DNA from: Lysobacter sp. cf310
GTDB taxonomy: Bacteria; Pseudomonadota; Gammaproteobacteria; Xanthomonadales; Xanthomonadaceae
Length of the DNA: 64,000 nucleotides
Direction of reading: 5' to 3'
Assembly: GCF_900114355.1 (NCBI RefSeq)
Contig: NZ_FOSS01000004.1
Span: 336,238 to 400,237 of the forward strand
Positions 41,501 to 59,255 of this stretch are shown here, piece after piece. The position numbers and the translations under genes are program-made. The notes beneath the pieces were generated by a model. That model saw only the letters and a list, made by a program, of their open reading frames with translations. It did no database searches and was not told where the DNA came from. The first letter of the stretch is position 1; the number at the start of each line of letters is the position of its first letter.

Positions 41501-41733
41501 TCGTGATGACCTCGATCGCCTTCATCGCAGGCACCGTACCGCTGGTGCTGTCGCATGGCGCCGGTGCGGAAATCCGCTCGGTCACCGGCATCACCGTGTT
41601 CGCCGGCATGTTGGGCGTGACCCTGTTCGGTCTGTTCCTGACCCCGGTGTTCTACGTCGCCCTGCGCAAGCTGGCCGGCAGCAAGCCGCTGGTCAACCAC
41701 TCCGCCGATCACGTCGCCTCCGCGCATGCCTGA
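38566..41733 (+). CDS. RND multidrug efflux permease (HAE1, MexF-like)
   Basis: Inner-membrane proton/drug antiporter of 1055 residues, full length for HAE1. It starts MDFSKFFIDRPIFAAVLSIV. The proton-relay residues are D409 and D410 in IGIVVDDAIVVVENV, and a Lys in helix 10 (GLACKNAILIVEFA). LLAVPVSVVGTFAALY and the duplicated 12-helix layout with two large periplasmic loops are clear. Over the first 240 residues it reads closest to MexF/BpeF rather than AcrB, which suggests small or neutral drugs such as chloramphenicol and quinolones, but specificity cannot be read from sequence. Central gene of a tripartite pump operon. Confidence 0.97.
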   Translation: MDFSKFFIDRPIFAAVLSIVIFAAGLIAIPILPISEYPEVVPPSVMVRTVYPGANPKVIAETVATPLEEAINGVEDMMYIKSVAGSDGVLAITVTFRPGTDPDDAAVRVQNRVSQALARLPEDVRRQGVTTQKQAPVFLMVVHLTSPNGKYDTLYLRNYARLHVKDSLARLSGVGDAQIFGGGDYAMRVWLDPDKIASRGLTASDVLRAMREQNVQVSAGQLGAEPMPNSDFLTLINAKGRLQSEEEFGNIVVKSGNDGEIVRLSDVARLELGAGDYSLRSQLDGKNAVGIGIFQSPGANALEIQEQVIANMDRLSKSFPEGIKYEAVYDTTIFVRDSIKAVVTTLLEAIALVVLVVILFLQTWRASIIPLLAVPVSVVGTFAALYLLGFSINTLTLFGLVLAIGIVVDDAIVVVENVERNIEEGLTPLAAAHQAMKEVSGPIVAIALVLCAVFVPMAFLSGVTGQFYKQFAVTIAISTVISAINSLTLSPALAARLLRPHGAEKDAPSRLIDRLFGWIFRPFNRFFASSSQKYQGAVSRALGKRGAVFVVYAVLLVATGFMFKLVPAGFIPLQDKLYLIAAVKLPEGSSIARTDALLKKVTDIAGKIDGVQNTMAFPGLNAVQFTNTPNTGVAFLPLKPFSERSRSAVEITAELNQKIGGFQEGFTFALMPPPILGLGNGAGYQMFIEDRSNLGYGALQNAVSAFQGTVMQTPGMGYANSTYQANVPQLDAEVDRVKAKAQGVPLTELFDTLQTYLGSAYVNDFNQFGRTWQVIAQADGSFRDSVEDIANLRTRNDRGEMVPIGSMVSVKQTYGPDPVLRYNGYPAADIAGDVDPRVMSSAQAMDVVKDVAAKVLPHGMEIEWTDLSYQQASQGNAALIVFPLAILLAFLVLAALYESWTLPLAVILIVPMCMLSALLGVWLTGGDNNVFVQVGLVVLMGLACKNAILIVEFARELELQGKGIVEAALEACRLRLRPIVMTSIAFIAGTVPLVLSHGAGAEIRSVTGITVFAGMLGVTLFGLFLTPVFYVALRKLAGSKPLVNHSADHVASAHA

Positions 41734-41833
41734 TCGGCGCACGCCCACGATGCAAGGTCTGGCGGTGGATTCCTCCACCGCCGGGCCCTCGGACCGGATC
41801 CGGTCCGTCCCCCACGAATCAAGGAATTCCCCC

Positions 41834-42571
41834 ATGGCTAACCCACACGCTTCCAAGATCGCGCTGGTCACCGGCGCCACCCGCGGCATCGGCCTGGAGA
41901 CCGTGCGCCAGCTCGCCAGCGAAGGCGTGCACGTGCTGCTGGCCGGCCGCGATCGCGGCAAGGCGGTCGAGGCCGCGCTGCAGCTGCAGGCCGAGGGCCT
42001 GCCGGTCGAGGCGATCGCGCTGGACGTCACCAGCGACAGCAGCATCGCCGCCGCCGCCGAAGAGGTCGCCGCCAAGCACGGCCGCCTCGACATCCTGGTC
42101 AACAACGCCGGCGTGTTTCGCGACGACGGCCAGCTCAAGCCCTCGCAGCAGAGCCTGGACATCTGGCTGGAAACCTTCAACACCAACCTGTTCGGTCTGA
42201 TCGCGACCACCCAGGCCTTCCTGCCGCTGCTGCACAAGGCGCCGGCCGCGCGCATCGTCAACGTGTCCAGCATCCTGGGCTCGATCGCGTTGCACCAGGA
42301 CCCGGCCTCGCCGATCTATCACTACAAGGTGCCGGCCTACAACGTGTCCAAGACCGCGGTGAACGCCTGGACCGCGCACCTGGCCTACGAGCTGCGCGAC
42401 ACCCCGCACAAGGTCAACACCCTGCACCCCGGCTCGGTGAAGACCGACATGAACGCCAACGGCGACATGAGCATTCCCGACGGCGCGCGCACCAGCGTGC
42501 GTCTGGCTCTGATCGATGCGGCCGGCCCCAACGGCGGCTACTACCACCTCGAGGAATCCCTGCCATGGTGA
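41834..42571 (+). CDS. SDR family oxidoreductase within the efflux operon
   Basis: Classical short-chain dehydrogenase of 245 residues. The start MANPHASKIALVTGATRGIG has AAGGA eight bases upstream; an ATG at 41726 lies in a non-protein-like extension. Cofactor motif TGATRGIG, NNAG in LDILVNNAGVF, catalytic Ser in VNVSSILGS and YNVSK for Tyr/Lys are all present, so it is probably active. The long form resembles carbonyl reductases that act on xenobiotics. It lies between the pump gene and the outer-membrane channel gene and overlaps the latter by seven bases. Confidence 0.93.
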   Translation: MANPHASKIALVTGATRGIGLETVRQLASEGVHVLLAGRDRGKAVEAALQLQAEGLPVEAIALDVTSDSSIAAAAEEVAAKHGRLDILVNNAGVFRDDGQLKPSQQSLDIWLETFNTNLFGLIATTQAFLPLLHKAPAARIVNVSSILGSIALHQDPASPIYHYKVPAYNVSKTAVNAWTAHLAYELRDTPHKVNTLHPGSVKTDMNANGDMSIPDGARTSVRLALIDAAGPNGGYYHLEESLPW

Positions 42572-44028: not shown

Positions 44029-44065
44029 GTTGACGGTTTTGCGGCGGTCGGCCCGGCCGTCGCAC

Positions 44066-44095
44066 GGCCCGCCTCCTGGTGGCGGGCCGGTTTTT
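44066..44095 (+). terminator. rho-independent terminator of the RND operon
   Basis: Perfect 8-bp stem GGCCCGCC / GGCGGGCC with a 7-base loop, followed by GGTTTTT. It starts 38 bases after the stop of the outer-membrane channel gene and is the clearest intrinsic terminator in the window. Confidence 0.88.
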
Positions 44096-44382
44096 CGCGG
44101 CTTGCGACGTTTCGGTCGATCGGACGTCGCGCGATGTTGGACCGATGGAACGACCGGCGGTCGGCGATGGCGCGACCCGTCAGTTCGATGCGGCGCCGCG
44201 CCGTCGTTCCGTCTTTTTTACCGATGAGCCGACGGATGGCGTCAGTCCCTCCCCCTCGAATGCGTCGCCGCCGGCTCATCGGTCTTCTTTTCCGCCACCG
44301 TCGTCGCGCAATGCCCAGCGAACGCCCTGAAAGCGGGCTCAACGGCTAGAATCTCCACCGCGATCGCAGTGGGAACCCGGGC
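44096..44382. other. gene-free leader before the receptor cluster
   Basis: About 290 bases with no convincing gene. It contains GC-rich sequence with many CG-rich inverted words, CCGATGAGCCGACGGATGG (about 44220-44239) and a TAGAAT hexamer at 44347-44352 that precedes the first receptor gene by 30 bases. Confidence 0.5.
44347..44352 (+). promoter_or_regulatory. TAGAAT -10-like box before receptor paralogue 1
   Basis: TAGAAT ends 30 bases before the ATG at 44383. Equivalent TAGACT boxes stand 33, 30 and 27 bases before paralogues 2, 3 and 4, suggesting that each has its own promoter. The -35 sequences are not conserved. Confidence 0.4.
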
Positions 44383-45546
44383 ATGCGTGGACATTGGACC
44401 TCGGCTTGGATCGCATGCCTGATTGCGCTGGCCGCAGCCTGCGCGCCGCCCGCTGCGGCGCAAGCTCTGACAGTGGAGTTGCTGAAGGTCGAGCGCATGC
44501 AGCGCGAGCGCCCGCTAGATGCCGCCGTCGTCGCGCGTTGGACCGCCGCAGTGCCGGCCGATGTGATCCGCATCGAAGTTCCGCGCAGGGCGGCCGGGCA
44601 TTGGCTGCGCCTGAGCGTCGATCGCGACATCGGCGCCGACGAACAGCGCTCGTTGTCGATCGAGGGCGCGCGCGTGTTCGGCATGCTGCGCTATTACGCG
44701 CCCGGTACCGACCGCTTGATCGAGATCAGTCCGGTGGCGTCGGGGCAGGCGACCTTGCTGCGAATGGGCTGGGAGTTGCCCCTGCCGCAGGGATGGAAGC
44801 GCGGCGACCCGGTCTACGTGCAGATGCAGGGCCGGATCTCCAGCGCGTTCGCGATCAGCCTCTCGACGCGCGCCGAGCTGGCGCGTCGCTACGAGAGCGA
44901 CCGGCGCTTCGCCGTAGTCACTTACTCCATTCTGCTGCTGATGACCCTGTTCGTCGCCGCATTGTGGGTGGCCACGCGCGAGACTGTGTATCTGCTCTAT
45001 AGCGCCTACATGGTCTGCATGTCGGCGTACATGCTGTTGCTGTCGAGACTGATCGACATCCAGTGGGACCCGATGATCGTGCGCGACGGCGTCGGATGGG
45101 CGGCGGCGACGTTGGCGACGGTGTTCCAGCTCGCCTTCAGTCTGCGCTTCCTGGACCTGCCGCGCTGGGCTCCGCGCATCTCGATGGTCTTGCGCGCGAT
45201 CGTCTGGATCAATGTGGCGTGGCTGCTGGTGCTGGCGCTGGCGTTCCGCCAGGTCTATTTCTACTGGTACATCGTTGGCAACGCCCTGCTGCTGCTGGCG
45301 ATACCGCTGCTGCTCTATGCCGCCTTCAAGGCTTGGCGTCGCGGCGCCGAGTTCGCGGGCTACTACCTGCTGGGTTGGACCCCGTTGATGGTCTTCGCCT
45401 GCTTGAGCGCGCTAAAGGCCTTCGGCGTGGGTAGCGCCGAGTGGGCCGAGCGCGGCCTGGTGCTGGCGGTGGTGCTGGAATCGGGCGTGCTGATGATGGC
45501 GCTGACCCAGCGCGCGGCCGCGCGTCATCGGCGCGCGGCGCCCTGA
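44383..45546 (+). CDS. 7TM-DISM-like membrane receptor, paralogue 1 (no output domain)
   Basis: Membrane protein of 387 residues. A Sec signal (cleavage likely after AAAQA, residue 28) precedes a β-rich extracytoplasmic domain (about 29-175; ending ELARRYESDRRF), probably 7TMR-DISMED2-like. Seven transmembrane helices follow (about 176-378). Conserved signatures shared with the next genes are FSLRFLDLP, AWRRGAEFAGYYLLGWTPLM and LESGVLMMALTQRAAARHRR. The protein stops right after the last helix with a short basic tail, so it lacks the GGDEF, kinase or other output usual for such receptors. It may signal through a partner. First of four intact tandem paralogues. Confidence 0.8.
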   Translation: MRGHWTSAWIACLIALAAACAPPAAAQALTVELLKVERMQRERPLDAAVVARWTAAVPADVIRIEVPRRAAGHWLRLSVDRDIGADEQRSLSIEGARVFGMLRYYAPGTDRLIEISPVASGQATLLRMGWELPLPQGWKRGDPVYVQMQGRISSAFAISLSTRAELARRYESDRRFAVVTYSILLLMTLFVAALWVATRETVYLLYSAYMVCMSAYMLLLSRLIDIQWDPMIVRDGVGWAAATLATVFQLAFSLRFLDLPRWAPRISMVLRAIVWINVAWLLVLALAFRQVYFYWYIVGNALLLLAIPLLLYAAFKAWRRGAEFAGYYLLGWTPLMVFACLSALKAFGVGSAEWAERGLVLAVVLESGVLMMALTQRAAARHRRAAP

Positions 45547-45729
45547 TGGCTTGGGCTCTGCCGAGACGGTAGAGGCGTAAGAGCTCGGCGGTGCGAGGCC
45601 ACGAGCGCGCCGGGTGGATCGCGATGGCCCTGCCGGCGCGCACGACACGCGTGCAAAGGGCGGCCGCGGTGACCACGGGGACTACTCCGAGCGCCTGGCG
45701 ACGCGCGCGGCAAGAATCCTTGCTCCTGT

Positions 45730-46200
45730 CCCGGTGGGGCGTCGATCCGGCCCGATCACTGCAAGCGCGACGGCTACGCCTGCATCCGCATGCAGGGCGA
45801 ATGCCCGACCTTCAGCGTGCGTTTCCTCGATCCGACGCGGCCGCTGTCGCGCGCGGCACGCGCGTTGCACCTCCTCCTGCAAGTGAATTTGTTGTGGCCT
45901 CTACCTCGTTTTATGGCACGCAACATCACCAAGCATCGCGAGCGCCTGAGCGGAAACGCCGTGCCGCTATCGGCCTTCCCGACCGTGATCCACGCCGCGT
46001 CGCGGCCGCATGGCGCGGCGCCGAATACGCCGGCGGCTACCGGGTCGGCCGGATGCCGCTGATGATCTTCGCCGGTCTGATCCCGGCCAAGACCTTCGAC
46101 GTCGACACCCTCCGGTTGCGACGAGCATGGCCTGGTATGGCGGAGTCGGGCGCGCCGATGAGGGCCGCGAATCAGCGCGCGGCACGTTGTCGGCGCATGT
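45730..46200 (+). pseudogene. decayed fifth copy of the 7TM receptor gene
   Basis: Sequence between paralogues 1 and 2 carries damaged pieces of the same gene, in order. In one frame (about 45754-45990) it reads KRDGYACIRMQ then TFSVRFLDPTRPLSRAARAL and LSGNAVPLSAFPTVIHAA, matching RDG..., FTVRFLDLPKLLPRVATLL and LGGNALFLLAIPVVIYAA of the intact copies. Near 45990 the frame changes and continues VAAAWRGAEYAGGYRVGRMP, LMIFAGLIPAKTF and AESGAPMRAANQRAARCRR, matching AWRRGAEYAGYYLLGWTPLI and ESGILMMALTQRAAARHRR. The N-terminal half is missing. So it is a frameshifted remnant of the C-terminal 7TM half. The boundary positions are approximate. Confidence 0.72.
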
Positions 46201-46231
46201 CGCAACGGCGGCCGGCACGGCCGTGAATGGT

Positions 46232-46237
46232 TAGACT
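46232..46237 (+). promoter_or_regulatory. TAGACT -10-like box before receptor paralogue 2
   Basis: TAGACT ends 33 bases before the ATG at 46271. It belongs to the set of equivalent boxes before all four intact paralogues. Confidence 0.4.
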
Positions 46238-46270
46238 CGGCCCTGCGCAGCGTGGGAGTCGAAGTGGGCC

Positions 46271-47455
46271 ATGAGAAGGATCTTGGCGACAGTGTGGCTG
46301 GGGGTGTGGCTCGCGCTGGGGGGCGGGCCCGCGGCGGCGCAAACCGTGACGGTCGAGCGTCTGCAGGTCAAAAGCGCGCAACTAAAGCCCCCGGCCGCCG
46401 ACACGCCGGTGCTGCAGCGCTGGACCGCGATCGCGCCCGCCACCCGCACCCGCGTCGAACTGCCGCGCCGACGCGGGGGGCATTGGCTGCGCCTCACCGT
46501 GGATCGCGATGTCGCCGCCAGCGAGCAGCGGGTGGTCGTCATGCAGGGCGCACGCGCTTACGGCATGGTCGGCTACTTCCCGCCAGGCTCCGAGCGGCTG
46601 CTCCTGCTGGGTTACACCCGCGAGGACGGACCGATGATGCTGCGGCGCGGTTGGGCGCTGCCGCTGCCGGAGGGTTGGAAACGCGGCGATGCAGCCTATG
46701 TGCTCACCAAGGGGCGTGTGCCCAGCGTGCTGAACGTGGGGTTCCTTACCCGCGCCGAGCTGGCGCAGCAGCGCGAAACCGACCGGCGTTACGCGATCGC
46801 CGCGTACGGCGCGATGCTGTTGATGACCCTGGTTGTGGCGGGGTTGTGGTTGTCGTTGCGCGAGGCGGTGTACCTGCATTACTGCGGCTATCTGATCAGC
46901 GTCTCGATCTACACGCTGATGATGTCCGGCTGGATGAAGGTACCGCTGAGTTGGGGAGGATTGGCGGTGCAGTACAACGCCGCGCCCTGGGTGGCCGCGA
47001 CCATGGCCACGATGTTCCAACTCGCCTTCACCGTGCGCTTCCTGGATCTGCCGAAGCTGTTGCCGCGCGTGGCCACGCTGCTGCGCGTGATCGTGTGCGC
47101 CAATCTGGCGTGGCTGGCGATGCTCTTCATCGCTTTCGATCACCTTTACCAGACCTGGTATCTGGGCGGAAACGCTTTGTTTCTGCTGGCCATCCCGGTG
47201 GTGATCTATGCGGCGATCGCCGCATGGCGGCGCGGCGCTGAATATGCGGGCTACTACCTCCTGGGCTGGACCCCGTTGATCCTTTTCGCCGGCATGATCG
47301 CGGCCAAGACCTTCGGCATCGGCAACACCGATTGGGCCGAACGCGGGCTGCTGCTGGCGATCGTGCTGGAGTCGGGCATTTTGATGATGGCGTTGACCCA
47401 ACGCGCGGCGGCCCGTCACAGACGGGCACTGAAAGTGAGGCCAGCGCCGCCCTGA
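46271..47455 (+). CDS. 7TM-DISM-like membrane receptor, paralogue 2 (no output domain)
   Basis: Protein of 394 residues built like paralogue 1: signal peptide (MRRILATVWLGVWLALGGGP, cleavage near AAAQT), β-rich extracytoplasmic domain (about 25-175; RRGGHWLRLTVDRDVAASEQ, RRGWALPLPEGWKRGDAAYV) and seven helices (about 178-380). LAFTVRFLDLPKLLPRVATL, AWRRGAEYAGYYLLGWTPLI and LESGILMMALTQRAAARHRR are shared with the other copies. No cytoplasmic output domain. It is the copy most like the decayed fragment upstream. 41 bases separate its stop from the start of paralogue 3. Confidence 0.8.
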   Translation: MRRILATVWLGVWLALGGGPAAAQTVTVERLQVKSAQLKPPAADTPVLQRWTAIAPATRTRVELPRRRGGHWLRLTVDRDVAASEQRVVVMQGARAYGMVGYFPPGSERLLLLGYTREDGPMMLRRGWALPLPEGWKRGDAAYVLTKGRVPSVLNVGFLTRAELAQQRETDRRYAIAAYGAMLLMTLVVAGLWLSLREAVYLHYCGYLISVSIYTLMMSGWMKVPLSWGGLAVQYNAAPWVAATMATMFQLAFTVRFLDLPKLLPRVATLLRVIVCANLAWLAMLFIAFDHLYQTWYLGGNALFLLAIPVVIYAAIAAWRRGAEYAGYYLLGWTPLILFAGMIAAKTFGIGNTDWAERGLLLAIVLESGILMMALTQRAAARHRRALKVRPAPP

Positions 47456-47460
47456 GTCGT

Positions 47461-47466
47461 TAGACT
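47461..47466 (+). promoter_or_regulatory. TAGACT -10-like box before receptor paralogue 3
   Basis: TAGACT ends 30 bases before the ATG at 47497, five bases after the previous stop codon, so this copy may have its own promoter although it directly follows paralogue 2. Confidence 0.4.
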
Positions 47467-47496
47467 GCCGCCAGGAACAGGCGGCACGAGACCGGC

Positions 47497-48693
47497 ATGC
47501 GAAGGGACGTGAAGGCAGCATGGATCGCGATTTTGGCCGTGCTGTTAGGCCTGTTCGCGACGGCGGCCGGCGCCCAGACGCTGACGATCGAACGTCTGCA
47601 GGCCGACGGCGGCGGTTGGGCGCGTCCCGACGCCGGTCGGGCCGTCCAGCGCTGGACCGCCGCGGGCCCCGACGTCCCGTTGCGCATCGAGCTGTCGCGC
47701 AACCGCAAAGGCTACTGGCTGCGCTTGTCGGTCGATCGCGACATCGCGGCCGCCAGCCGGCGCGTGGTGGTGCTGCGCAGTCCGCGCGCCTACGGCATGG
47801 CCGCCTACTACCCGCCCGGATCGGAGCGTCTGTCGCTGATCGGTTACGTGCGCGACGACGGCCCGCAACTGCTGCGGCGCGGCTGGGCGCTGCCATTGCA
47901 GGAGGGTTGGAACGCCGACAACGTGGCCTACGTCCATGTGTCCACGCGCAACGCCACCACGCTCGACATCAGTCTGGCCAATCGCGACGACCTGGCGCGC
48001 GAACTGGAGAGCGACCGGCGGTTCGCCATCGTCGTCTACGCCCTGATGCTGACGATGACCCTGGTGGTCGCCGGCTTCTGGGTGGTTTCGCGCGATTCGG
48101 TGTACCTGTACTACTGCGGCTACATGATCTGCCTGTCGATCTATCTGCTGTTGATGACGGCCTGGATCAAGATACCGGCCGAATGGTTCGGTTCGGCGGT
48201 GCAGCGCGACGGCGCGGGCTGGTTCGTCGCCACCTTGACCACGATGTTCCAGCTTTGCTTCACGGTGCGTTTCCTCGAACTGCCCCGTCTGCTGCCGCGC
48301 GCGGCGAGCGCCTTGCACGCGATCGTGTGGGCCAACGCGATCGCGCTGGCGGCGCTGGTGCTGATGTTCGATTTCGTCTATCAGTACTGGTTCGTGGTCG
48401 GCAACGGCCTGCTGCTGCTGGTGATTCCGATCATCGTCTACGCCGCGATCGTGGCCTGGCGGCGCGGCTCCGCGTACGCGGGCTATTACCTGATCGGCTG
48501 GACGCCGCTGATGCTGTTCGCCGGGCTGGTCGCCGCCAAGACCTTCGGCCTCGGCAATTCCTACCTGATCGAGCGCGGCCTGCTGCTGGCGGTGGTGATG
48601 GAAACCGGCGTGCTGATGATCGCGCTGACCCAGCGCGCGGCCGAGCGGCACCGCCGCGCACAACGGCAGACCAGCGAGGGCGGTCGCCGCTGA
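47497..48693 (+). CDS. 7TM-DISM-like membrane receptor, paralogue 3 (no output domain)
   Basis: Protein of 398 residues with signal peptide (MRRDVKAAWIAILAVLLGLF, cleavage after AGA), extracytoplasmic domain (about 27-177; RKGYWLRLSVDRDIAAASRR, RRGWALPLQEGWNADNVAYV) and seven helices (about 180-382). Shared signatures: LCFTVRFLELPRLLPRAASA, AWRRGSAYAGYYLIGWTPLM and METGVLMIALTQRAAERHRR. It ends with a short polar tail (AQRQTSEGGRR). No output domain. The extracytoplasmic halves of the paralogues differ more than the 7TM halves, as expected if they sense different ligands. Confidence 0.8.
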   Translation: MRRDVKAAWIAILAVLLGLFATAAGAQTLTIERLQADGGGWARPDAGRAVQRWTAAGPDVPLRIELSRNRKGYWLRLSVDRDIAAASRRVVVLRSPRAYGMAAYYPPGSERLSLIGYVRDDGPQLLRRGWALPLQEGWNADNVAYVHVSTRNATTLDISLANRDDLARELESDRRFAIVVYALMLTMTLVVAGFWVVSRDSVYLYYCGYMICLSIYLLLMTAWIKIPAEWFGSAVQRDGAGWFVATLTTMFQLCFTVRFLELPRLLPRAASALHAIVWANAIALAALVLMFDFVYQYWFVVGNGLLLLVIPIIVYAAIVAWRRGSAYAGYYLIGWTPLMLFAGLVAAKTFGLGNSYLIERGLLLAVVMETGVLMIALTQRAAERHRRAQRQTSEGGRR

Positions 48694-48776
48694 GGCCGCC
48701 GGTGCGCGCGTCGGCCGCGGCGAGCCCCGATCGCGCACTGCCGCCCGCCGATGCGGCCGAGCGCGTCTGCAGACGC

Positions 48777-48782
48777 TAGACT
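48777..48782 (+). promoter_or_regulatory. TAGACT -10-like box before receptor paralogue 4
   Basis: TAGACT ends 27 bases before the chosen ATG at 48810 and only six before an alternative ATG at 48789. The distance to 48810 agrees with the 30-33 bases seen in the other copies, which helps to decide the start. Confidence 0.4.
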
Positions 48783-48809
48783 CCATCCATGCCGCAGGGG
48801 AATCGACGG

Positions 48810-50495
48810 ATGCGCAGGATCTGGGGGAGCGTCATGCTCGCGCTGACGTTGGCGTTCGCCTGCATGCCGGCCATGGCGCAATCGCTGAAGGCCGAGTTGC
48901 TGCTGACCGAAGGCGAACTGGACGGACCGCCGGCCTCGGCGCCGGTGACCGCACGCTCCATCGCCGAGACGCCCGGCGACCTGGTCTACCTGACCATGCC
49001 GCGCCGCGAGGCCGGCTACTGGATCCGCCTGACCACCGATCGCGATATCGCCGCCAGCGAAAGCCAGCTGCTGGTGCTGCGCGGCGCGCGTGCGCGCGGG
49101 CCGGTCACCTATTACCCGCCCGGCGCGCCGCCGCGCATCGTCAACGACGCCGAGAACGGCGGCCCGGTGCTGCTGCGGCGCGGTTGGGTGCTGCCGCTGC
49201 CCAATGGCTGGACCCGCGGTGACGTCGCTTATCTGCGCGTGGGCGGCAACACCGCCGAGGCGCTGAGCCTGCGCCTGGCGACCGTGCCCGAGCTGGCGCG
49301 CCAGGAACGCGGCGACTCGCGCTTCATGGTCGCCGCCTTCACCGCGATGATGCTGATGGCGGTGGCGATGATCGCGATCTGGTACGCCTTCCGCGACCTG
49401 GTCTACATGGCCTACGGCGCCTACCTGGCCTGCGCGGCGATCTATCTGCTGCTGGTGTCCGGCGACGCGGCCGAGATGTGGGGCCTGGCCGGGCTGGCCA
49501 GCGGGCGCCTGACCGTGACCTGGACCCTGGCCACCTTGGCCACGATCTTCCAGCTCGGTTTCAGCCTGCGCTTCCTGGAGCTGCCGCGCCTGCTGCCGCG
49601 CCTGGCGGTGCTGGTGCGCACGGTGCAGTGGGCCAACATCCTGTGGCTGGCGGTACTGCTGGCGCTGCGCGAGCGCGTGCACGACTTCTGGTACATCGGC
49701 GGCAACGCCCTGCTGCTGGTCGGCATTCCGCTGATGTTCGCCGCCGCGATCATGGCCTGGCGCCGCGGTGCGCCCTATGCGGGCTACTACCTGCTGGGCT
49801 GGACGCCGCTGCTGCTGTTCGTCGGCGTGCTCGCGGCCTATCCCTTCGGCGTCGGCCGCGCCGAGTGGGCCGACCGCGGCCTGGCGCTGGCGGCGGTGCT
49901 GGAATCGGGCGTGCTCGCGCTGGCCCTGAGCCAGCACGCGGCCAACCGCCACCGCCTGTCCCTGCTCGCGCGCCAGTCCGGCGACCGCGACCCGCTCACC
50001 GGCACCCTCAACGCCTCGGCGCTGCGCCTGCTGCTGGAGACCTGGTCGGCGCCGGGCAGCCTGGGCCTCAAGCATCACGGCCTGCTGCTGCTGGACCTGG
50101 ACGGCTTCGGCGAGATCAACGCCCGCTACGGCCGCGCGATCGGCGACGCCCTGCTGCAGCAGGCGCTGGCGCGCATCCGCGGGGTGCTGCGTCCGGACGA
50201 CACCATCGCGCGCATGGGCGGCGACAGCTTCGCGGTGGTGGCCGAGTGCGAGCGCGTGGATTGCGAGCTGCTGGGCCGGCGCCTGGCCGACGCCTTCGGC
50301 CAGCGGCCGTTCCGCATCGACGGCCACGAGATCGCGGTCAGCGCCAGCGTCGGCCTGGCCATGGCCCAGCGCGGCGAGCCCGTGCAGAGCCTGCTCGACC
50401 GCGCCGAGCACGCCCTGCTCAGCGCCCGCAACGCCGGCCGCAACACGGTCGGCATCGCGCCCGCGGCGGCGCTGCCGGCGCTGGAAGCGGGCTGA
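48810..50495 (+). CDS. 7TM-DISM receptor fused to a degenerate GGDEF domain, paralogue 4
   Basis: Protein of 561 residues. The ATG at 48810 has AGGGGA eight bases upstream; 48789 is also in frame. Signal peptide (cleavage after AMA), extracytoplasmic domain (about 25-172) and seven helices (about 175-375) match paralogues 1-3 (GFSLRFLELPRLLPRLAVLV, AWRRGAPYAGYYLLGWTPLL, LESGVLALALSQHAANRHR). A C-terminal GGDEF domain (about 392-555) follows. Metal-site Asp is kept (LLDLDGFGEI, D429), and so is the RxxD inhibitory-site motif (RPDD, five residues before GGDSF). However the signature is G470-G-D-S-F, with Ser for the conserved Glu, and the FKxxND motif is FGEIN. It is probably an inactive cyclase, perhaps a c-di-GMP receptor. 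Confidence 0.85.
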   Translation: MRRIWGSVMLALTLAFACMPAMAQSLKAELLLTEGELDGPPASAPVTARSIAETPGDLVYLTMPRREAGYWIRLTTDRDIAASESQLLVLRGARARGPVTYYPPGAPPRIVNDAENGGPVLLRRGWVLPLPNGWTRGDVAYLRVGGNTAEALSLRLATVPELARQERGDSRFMVAAFTAMMLMAVAMIAIWYAFRDLVYMAYGAYLACAAIYLLLVSGDAAEMWGLAGLASGRLTVTWTLATLATIFQLGFSLRFLELPRLLPRLAVLVRTVQWANILWLAVLLALRERVHDFWYIGGNALLLVGIPLMFAAAIMAWRRGAPYAGYYLLGWTPLLLFVGVLAAYPFGVGRAEWADRGLALAAVLESGVLALALSQHAANRHRLSLLARQSGDRDPLTGTLNASALRLLLETWSAPGSLGLKHHGLLLLDLDGFGEINARYGRAIGDALLQQALARIRGVLRPDDTIARMGGDSFAVVAECERVDCELLGRRLADAFGQRPFRIDGHEIAVSASVGLAMAQRGEPVQSLLDRAEHALLSARNAGRNTVGIAPAAALPALEAG

Positions 50496-57766: not shown

Positions 57767-57961
57767 CGATGCGGCAATTCGTTCCGGTATGCGTTTGCGC
57801 GCGCTGGCCGCGAGGGCCTGGCAAGCGCGCGTGCCGGCCTCCGCGGTGCAGGCGCAAGTGCCTGATCGCAATCGTGAAATCCGTCGCGACGCGGGCAATT
57901 AGTAACGTCGGAAACCATCCCCGCGCGGGCTTCGGCACGGGTCGTGCGCGGCCGCGCGCGC

Positions 57962-57967
57962 TAGACT
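57962..57967 (+). promoter_or_regulatory. TAGACT -10-like box before the MFS gene
   Basis: TAGACT ends 31 bases before the GTG at 57999. It has the same hexamer and nearly the same distance as the boxes before the 7TM receptors, so it may simply be the local σ70-type -10. No clear -35. Confidence 0.35.
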
Positions 57968-57998: not shown

Positions 57999-59255
57999 GT
58001 GACCGCATCCGTTCCCGGCGCGCGCCGCGCCGCGCTCGTTTTCATTTTCATTACCGTGCTGATCGACGTGCTGTCGTTCGGCCTGATCATTCCGGTGCTG
58101 CCGCGCCTGATCAAGGAATTCGCCGGTGGCGACACCGAACACGCGGCCTATTGGATCGCGGTGTTCGGCACCTTGTTCGCGGCGATCCAGTTCGTGTGCG
58201 CGCCGATCCAGGGTTCGCTGTCGGACCGCTACGGTCGCCGTCCGGTGATCCTGCTGTCCTGCCTGGGCCTGGGCCTGGACTTCATCTTCATGGCCCTGGC
58301 CAACACCCTGCCGTGGTTGCTGGTGGGCCGCGTGATCTCGGGCATCACCTCGGCCAGCTTCAGCACCGCCAACGCCTACATCGCCGACGTCACTGCGCCG
58401 GAAGAGCGCGCCAAGAGCTACGGCATGATCGGCGCCGCGTTCGGCCTGGGTTTCATCGTCGGGCCGGTGATCGGCGGCCAGCTCGGTCACTTCGACGTGC
58501 GCCTGCCGTTCTGGTTCGCGGCCGGTCTGGCGCTGTTGAACTTCTGCTATGGCTTGTTCGTGCTGCCCGAATCGCTGCCGCCGGACAAGCGCAGCGCCAA
58601 GTTCGACTGGTCGCACGCCAATCCGGTCGGCTCGCTGGTGCTGCTCAAGCGCTATCCGCAGGTGTTCGGCCTGGCCGCGGTGGTGTTCATCGCCAATCTC
58701 GCCCACTACGTCTATCCCAGCGTGTTCGTGCTGTTCGCCGATTACCGCTACGGCTGGGAGGAGCGCGAGGTGGGCTACGTGCTGGGCGTGGTCGGCGTAC
58801 TCAGCGTGATCGTCAACGTGGTCTTGATCGGGCGCGCGGTGAAGGCGTTCGGCGAGCGCCGTACGCTGTTGCTGGGCCTGGGCTGCGGCGCGATCGGTTT
58901 CATGGTCTACGGCTTCGCCGATGTCGGCTGGCTGTTCCTGGTCGGCCTGCCGATCAGCGCGCTGTGGGCGATGGCCGCGCCTGCGACCCAGGCCTTGATC
59001 ACGCGCCAGGTCGGCGCGGACGTGCAGGGCCGCGTCCAGGGCGCCTTGATGAGCCTGATCAGCCTGGCCGGCATCGTCGGCCCGACCCTGTTCGCGGGTA
59101 GCTTCGGCTACTTCGTCGGCAAGTCCTCGCCGGTGCACCTGCCGGGCGTGCCCTGGTTCATCGCCTCGAGCCTGCTGGTGCTGGGCGTGCTGATCGCCTG
59201 GCGCTATGCGCGCACCCAACCCGTCCCGGCCCACGTGGTCGCCGAGACCGCCTGA
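57999..59255 (+). CDS. MFS transporter, TetA-like drug:H+ antiporter family
   Basis: Inner-membrane permease of 418 residues with twelve helices. It begins at a GTG (TASVPGARRAALVFIFITVL). Motif A is GSLSDRYGRRPVILLS, helix 4 is PWLLVGRVISGITSASFSTA and helix 5 GAAFGLGFIVGPVIGGQLG. The first-helix LIDVLSFGLIIPVLPRLIKE fits the TetA/TCR 12-helix branch. A tetracycline or other drug export role is possible, but such chromosomal homologues often have other substrates. It is divergent from gltB and followed by a hairpin and a small lipoprotein gene. Confidence 0.92.
   Translation: MTASVPGARRAALVFIFITVLIDVLSFGLIIPVLPRLIKEFAGGDTEHAAYWIAVFGTLFAAIQFVCAPIQGSLSDRYGRRPVILLSCLGLGLDFIFMALANTLPWLLVGRVISGITSASFSTANAYIADVTAPEERAKSYGMIGAAFGLGFIVGPVIGGQLGHFDVRLPFWFAAGLALLNFCYGLFVLPESLPPDKRSAKFDWSHANPVGSLVLLKRYPQVFGLAAVVFIANLAHYVYPSVFVLFADYRYGWEEREVGYVLGVVGVLSVIVNVVLIGRAVKAFGERRTLLLGLGCGAIGFMVYGFADVGWLFLVGLPISALWAMAAPATQALITRQVGADVQGRVQGALMSLISLAGIVGPTLFAGSFGYFVGKSSPVHLPGVPWFIASSLLVLGVLIAWRYARTQPVPAHVVAETA

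Follow-up and report, generated by a model that had tools for sequence, protein, structure and literature searches.

Why would a bacterium encode, at one locus, three membrane receptors that stop at their last helix and a fourth that continues into a GGDEF domain? The question is raised by a 64,000-nucleotide stretch of the Lysobacter sp. cf310 genome (contig NZ_FOSS01000004.1, positions 336,238 to 400,237 of the forward strand; hereafter the window), where four intact paralogues, here called R1 to R4, lie in a row (Table 1). Open reading frames and Pfam agree on the layout first proposed from the letters alone (the sequence-only reading): three copies lack an output domain and one has GGDEF. 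All four proteins exceed the Pfam cut-off of 29 bits for 7TMR-DISM_7TM (PF07695; R1 89.5, R2 91.7, R3 77.9 and R4 67.3 bits), identity to R1 is 54% for R2, 52% for R3 and 47% for R4, and the four are joined in trees, confirming that their 7TM halves are truly related. Our answer is tentative: the output-less receptors R1–R3 may serve an R4 without enzymatic activity as co-receptors or modulators that diversify and are short-lived.

The break between R1–R3 and R4 lies directly behind the membrane. R1, R2 and R3 end 4, 10 and 12 residues past a conserved RHR that closes the last helix, which bears out the short tail previously described, and the eight output-less copies of other genomes end 3–13 residues past the same point, with RQR or HHR in three. 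No Pfam signalling domain follows the 7TM part of R1–R3, whereas in R4 the GGDEF domain does (90.2 bits, the sole such match among R1–R4). A search at E 0.01 downstream of each of the 11 output-less copies detected no GGDEF remnant. NCBIfam assigned R1–R3 to no family, and the best hit of a PDB sequence-profile search (E 0.06) was not meaningful. The 7TMR-DISM family is named after its intracellular modules; by their predicted 7TM domain R1–R3 belong to it, yet they are without the name-giving module. A further copy has decayed between R1 and R2: residues 253–315 and 317–394 of R2 align to it in frames 1 and 3 (E 4e-17), at the DNA level it is closest to the first output-less copy in genome G012 (73.9% over 268 bases), and Pfam found no family on the remnant frame. 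The array therefore once held five copies.

The distribution of the two forms differs. Every one of the 20 genus genomes has an R4-type gene with a GGDEF domain, and in 15 it was the sole match at E 1e-20. Output-less copies occurred in five genomes, with three plus the remnant in the window genome and two each in G010, G012, G013 and G014. In a family sample of 198 genomes, in which at most nine candidates were scored per genome, 24 had an R4 match at E 1e-30, nine within the genus and 15 outside it; each extra-genus genome had one match, in a frame of 569–618 amino acids and always with GGDEF. Because R4 stands alone in 15 of the 20 genus genomes and in these 15 more, it is, judged from sequence, the old gene of the array.

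The sequence-only reading had asked whether output-less copies always lie next to a GGDEF copy, and this was true in all five genomes that have them. The gene order in each is efflux operon, output-less copies, R4, folE. Scattered singletons were rejected, none being found outside the array in the genomes searched. Across the genus, Pfam returned 105 7TMR-DISM matches, of which 11 lie in frames shorter than 500 amino acids; these 11 are the array's output-less copies and no others. The matches listed for our genus, family, class and phylum samples, all from one phylum, included no intact output-less copy elsewhere. Seven frames below 500 amino acids scored above the Pfam cut-off in the class sample (143 genomes) outside the window genome: three have a GGDEF-type domain downstream, as judged by eye (G241:C1:382112; G305, at a contig start; and G314, weak), two break off within the 7TM part (G217 and G241:C1:2009810), and G241:C1:2678095 and 2678271 both belong to a single broken gene. 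In the phylum sample, of 150 genomes, the short frames were again G314 and, in addition, a fragment in G362. Among the matches listed for the family sample, one short frame owed its length to a frameshift, GGDEF following in the next frame (G184), and another ran off the contig end (G188:C154).

To place the output-less copies, trees of 46 copies (11 output-less and 35 R4) were built for the whole protein, the ectodomain and the 7TM half, with 200 bootstrap trees; the near-identical G001, G004, G011 and G018 were omitted from two alignments and kept in the trees. The output-less copies formed one side of a single branch (support 100/100 for whole protein and 7TM half, 100/99 for the ectodomain), present in 100% of the bootstrap trees of each of the three. 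Separate trees of the two halves, as suggested by the sequence-only reading, thus both recovered one output-less clade. Rooted outside the genus, this clade joins the R4 genes of the five genomes that carry it (support 96/87 for the whole protein, 96/88 for the ectodomain and 87/76 for the 7TM half), a join that is less than certain because the output-less stem is long (0.49–0.86) and the ectodomain tree carries a long-branch warning. The simplest history suggested by the join would be one duplication of R4 in this branch, a single loss of the GGDEF part and then tandem copying. In the whole-protein and 7TM trees an alpha lineage (first in the row, including R1) and a beta lineage (adjoining R4, including R3) are found in all five genomes and R2 falls in neither; the ectodomain tree mixes the lineages.

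We considered whether R4 could supply an enzymatic output for its neighbours. The glutamate in the fourth place of the GGDEF signature is needed for catalysis. It is present in none of the 35 R4 orthologues, which have S, C, M, L or R instead (GGDSF, DGDSF, EGDCF, DGDCF, AGDCF, ESDMF, ESDLF, EADSF, GRDMF, GGARF and EGARF). An RxxD motif five residues before the signature is found in 30 of the 35, being absent in G009, G015, G039, G083 and G086. Other 7TMR-DISM proteins of the same genome read, by eye, GGEEF (two), GGDEI (one) and histidine-kinase-like (one), and since GGEEF and GGDEI are kept there, the loss of the signature is specific to R4. A comparable protein, RgsP, has GGDQF and made no cyclic di-GMP (c-di-GMP); it carries RxxD, yet did not bind c-di-GMP in vitro (PMC6107284, in the part covered). 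With no intact signature in any of the 35 orthologues, R4 is almost surely not a diguanylate cyclase, and an ordinary cyclase was rejected on the same ground.

These observations bear on two proposals. Competition of the receptors for one GGDEF output, a possibility raised by the sequence-only reading, does not, in the form proposed, fit a signature degenerate throughout and an R4 that is partnerless in 15 of the 20 genus genomes. It is likewise very improbable that R4 is an active diguanylate cyclase with the output-less copies as dominant-negative partners: the layout is that of the active cyclase NicD (PMC8544897, part of the text) and the Pfam GGDEF match is well above cut-off, but the missing glutamate, in a genome where three other 7TMR-DISM proteins keep a readable motif, argues against it.

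The membrane half is the part that R1–R4 share best. In the output-less copies, 28 of the 43 7TM columns conserved in R4 are kept, as are 13 of the 27 ectodomain columns (31 R4 rows). A simple hydropathy scan found a hydrophobic N-terminal segment in all four proteins and seven further segments in R1, R3 and R4, with only five in R2. AlphaFold models of R3 (mean pLDDT 85.7, pTM 0.78) and R4 (mean pLDDT 81.2, pTM 0.67) show a beta-rich part, of ten strands in R3, followed by a helical membrane part; the last helix spans residues 355–395 of 398 in R3 and leads into the GGDEF domain in R4. The ectodomain, divergent and beta-rich in the sequence-only reading, is beta-rich in these predicted structures and has no Pfam match above cut-off in any of R1–R4, 7TMR-DISMED2 being weak and below cut-off in R3 alone (E 0.031).

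Fold searches with the R3 model were dominated by its helical half. Residues 168–398 resembled G-protein-coupled receptor bundles (best GPR156, Z 15.0, 224 residues, root-mean-square deviation 4.8), and the best Foldseek match over the full length was human TMEM87A (E 1.4e-05, TM-score 0.37). The modelled likeness to these receptors is near the level that helical bundles reach through common arrangement. RetS and LadS sensor structures were absent among the fold matches listed, to which we attach no weight either way.

The output-less copies and R4 also differ in how fast they change. Between the window genome and G013, ectodomain plus 7TM identity is 98.9% for R4, 88.5% for R3 and 67.6% for R1; for the flanking genes (efflux, folE, gltD) the range is 98.4–99.6%. 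Ratios of non-synonymous to synonymous divergence (dN/dS) were estimated pairwise by Nei–Gojobori, and these mutually dependent values are descriptive rather than a test, likelihood or other. Pairs with dS outside 0.1–1.0 were dropped (97, 101 and 103 of 105 kept for single-copy R4, nine of ten for the beta ectodomain). Median ectodomain dN/dS was 0.54 for alpha, 0.59 for beta, 0.18 for R4 of the same genomes and 0.37 for R4 of the single-copy branch; in the 7TM half the medians were 0.52, 0.34, 0.17 and 0.13, respectively. Evolution is thus several times faster in the output-less copies than in R4, yet they stay open and mostly constrained. As a side observation, their median dS (0.40–0.77 between counterparts) exceeds that of R4 in the same genomes (0.25–0.28); possible causes are codon bias, misassigned orthology and exchange between copies.

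Control-gene pairs were dropped if dS was at most 0.05 or fewer than 100 codons were shared; in the single-copy branch this kept 104 of 105 pairs for folE and gltD and only nine each for pump and channel, a region from few genomes. Median dN/dS in the tandem versus the single-copy branch was 0.085 and 0.159 for the RND pump, 0.056 and 0.089 for folE, and 0.167 and 0.216 for gltD, the exception being the outer-membrane channel (0.157 and 0.149). The GGDEF domain of R4 itself had medians of 0.17 and 0.21, a constraint resembling that of its neighbour gltD (0.17 and 0.22; folE 0.06 and 0.09), and it is kept under selection, probably because it binds c-di-GMP or GTP or docks a protein.

Relaxed dN/dS, together with the frameshifted copy within the array and a copy number that varies from two in four genomes to three plus a remnant in the window genome, is what near-neutral birth and death would leave, with GGDEF-less tandem duplicates slowly being lost and no settled job. 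We consider this account unlikely. Against it, 11 of 11 surviving copies are open frames, both the alpha and the beta lineage are still found in each of the five genomes by the whole-protein and 7TM trees, and dN/dS is mostly below 1: among 24 ectodomain and 7TM values from 12 output-less pairs, the bootstrap upper limit was below 1 in 23 (reaching 1.03 in the G010/G014 alpha ectodomain), and the beta 7TM half falls as low as 0.10.

Each copy in the window may also have a promoter of its own. A TAGA(C/A)T box precedes the start of 44 of the 46 copies, all 11 output-less ones among them; it reads TAGAAT in R1 and in R4 of G166 and TAGACT in the others. With starts taken at the ATG (in one case GTG) nearest the expected signal-peptide length, the box-to-start distance is mostly 25–46 bases, with 12 for R4 of G012 and 60 in G166. 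In the window, both strands together hold seven TAGAMT sites against 6.0 expected, four of which are the array boxes, and a scan of the region for sigma-70 consensus promoters found none. TAGA(C/A)T may be the -10 element of separate promoters. The box upstream of R4, together with the alignment, makes a start at 48810 (MRRIWGS...) more likely than the listed 48789. Elsewhere in the window, GCTAGACT lies at 57960–57967 (+), about 37 bases before an open reading frame that starts at 57999, which raises the possibility that the box serves promoters of this genome in general.

Separate boxes would suit receptors that work alone. R1–R3 might act independently of R4, in the manner of RgsP, through a job for which the dead GGDEF domain is dispensable and was hence dropped. 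The N-terminal part of RgsP holds its essential function and its EAL domain is removable (PMC6107284, as far as covered), and the GGDEF domain of R4 is degenerate as in RgsP. Conversely, RgsP without GGDEF was impaired in stability or function according to the same portion of that paper, a PAS domain belongs to its N-terminal part but was not found by Pfam in R1–R3, and a partner gene for R1–R3 would be hypothetical. Adjacency to R4 in five of five genomes is neutral here, because tandem origin alone explains it. We regard independent action as possible, if rather unlikely.

We therefore return to co-receptors or modulators of R4, the reading we favour because the membrane half is best kept and because the receptor class offers precedents for acting through another receptor; independent action and near-neutral turnover follow closely as rivals. 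R4 would be an old family receptor with a periplasmic beta-rich sensor, seven helices and a GGDEF domain that most likely no longer makes c-di-GMP. In one Lysobacter branch it would have been duplicated, and a copy would have lost the GGDEF-coding part once. The output-less form would then have multiplied in tandem with births and deaths, leaving two kept lineages and, in the window genome, an extra copy and a remnant. Through the shared membrane half such copies could bring fast-changing periplasmic sensors, perhaps with differing ligands, into mixed complexes with R4 and bias its non-enzymatic output in one direction or the other. A broader form of this proposal, a hub-and-spoke family in which a conserved non-enzymatic R4 pairs by its membrane half with fast-diversifying, lineage-specific output-less sensors and tandem copying adds ligand specificities without new outputs, seems doubtful to us.

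Several points weigh against co-receptors or modulators. The physical pairing of R1–R3 with R4 is something that we infer, and in 15 of the 20 genus genomes R4 does without an output-less partner. Turnover alone would equally account for the relaxed selection, the dead copy and the changes in copy number. Descent from R4 hangs on the support values given above and on extra-genus rooting, and the stem is long. The R4 ectodomain, though not its 7TM half, has a lower dN/dS in the tandem branch, as a division of labour would predict; we do not count this as evidence because three of the four control genes are lower there too, the RND pump by as much. Finally, because each copy has its own box, dosage need not follow that of R4.

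Table 1. Features of the receptor array and related loci; positions refer to the window unless a genome handle is given.
Feature	Position	Strand	Basis
Terminator-like hairpin between efflux operon and R1	44065..44089	+	hairpin scan of region (7 terminator-like sites found, 2.7 expected)
TAGAAT box, 36 bases before R1 start	44347..44352	+	motif scan
R1, output-less 7TMR-DISM receptor, 387 aa, alpha lineage	44383..45546	+	ORF, Pfam, tree
Remnant of fifth output-less copy: C-terminal 7TM half, frameshifted	45809..46223	+	translated and DNA match
TAGACT box, 39 bases before R2 start	46232..46237	+	motif scan
R2, output-less 7TMR-DISM receptor, 394 aa, neither lineage (whole, 7TM trees)	46271..47455	+	ORF, Pfam, tree
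TAGACT box, 36 bases before R3 start	47461..47466	+	motif scan
R3, output-less 7TMR-DISM receptor, 398 aa, beta lineage	47497..48693	+	ORF, Pfam, tree, model
TAGACT box, 33 bases before likely R4 start 48810	48777..48782	+	motif scan
R4, putatively ancestral 7TMR-DISM receptor with degenerate GGDEF domain, 568 aa from the listed start	48789..50495	+	ORF, Pfam, tree, model
GGDEF domain of R4, residues 400-552	49986..50444	+	Pfam
RPDD, RxxD inhibitory-site motif in R4 GGDEF domain	50190..50201	+	alignment
GGDSF, degenerate signature of R4 (Ser in place of Glu)	50217..50231	+	alignment
Other 7TMR-DISM proteins of the genome	G000:C2:379159, C2:437260, C10:196358, C6:1465327		motifs by eye

The neighbourhood of R4 in single-copy genomes is partly the same. 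In the five of 15 compared (G015, G008, G006, G003 and G019), R4 lies within 1 kb of folE, and efflux genes were found beside it in one (G008). Separately, all five tandem genomes have a gene that by eye is short-chain dehydrogenase-like (41726-42571 in the window) between the RND pump and the outer-membrane channel gene; in the single-copy G008 (L043), the pump gene directly adjoins the channel gene, and the search matched no dehydrogenase-like gene.

Output-less tandem 7TMR-DISM copies are not described in the covered parts of the family literature (PMC6107284, PMC8846402, PMC7695008, PMC8544897, PMC5932348, PMC1592074 and PMC3945109), a scope outside which most subscription papers fall. An array that has shed its modules, was copied repeatedly and persists across a Lysobacter branch beside a receptor whose own module lacks the catalytic signature would show that a sensor and a membrane half can be useful by themselves. 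With two to three copies per genome and the single-copy state preserved in sister genomes, the array is a small, testable set in which mixed-complex action of bacterial 7TM receptors could be examined.

Known systems match parts of this arrangement. NicD of Pseudomonas aeruginosa has the domain order 7TMR-DISMED2, 7TM, GGDEF, like R4; enhanced biofilm formation depended on its interaction with the periplasmic-sensor protein SagS, although its authors state that direct evidence is lacking for this interaction altering NicD activity. Unlike R4 with its degenerate signature, NicD is an active cyclase, and the portion of the paper covered mentions no output-less copies for it (PMC8544897). RgsP of Sinorhizobium meliloti shares with R4 the 7TMR-DISM architecture, a degenerate GGDEF domain (GGDQF) and RxxD, and has its main job in the N-terminal part; it differs in its PAS and active EAL domains and its alphaproteobacterial host, and no array is mentioned in the text covered (PMC6107284). 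RetS and LadS of pseudomonads are 7TMR-DISMED2 receptors that act on GacS by direct contact with another receptor, but they have kinase domains, through which the RetS contact is described, whereas R1–R3 have no cytoplasmic domain (PMC7695008, in part). PelD- and Filp-type proteins have inactive GGDEF-type domains that serve as c-di-GMP receptors, as cited in PMC5932348, whose covered part does not describe them as 7TMR-DISM; R4 has a degenerate GGDEF domain and RxxD and might also bind c-di-GMP, although RgsP, with that motif, did not.

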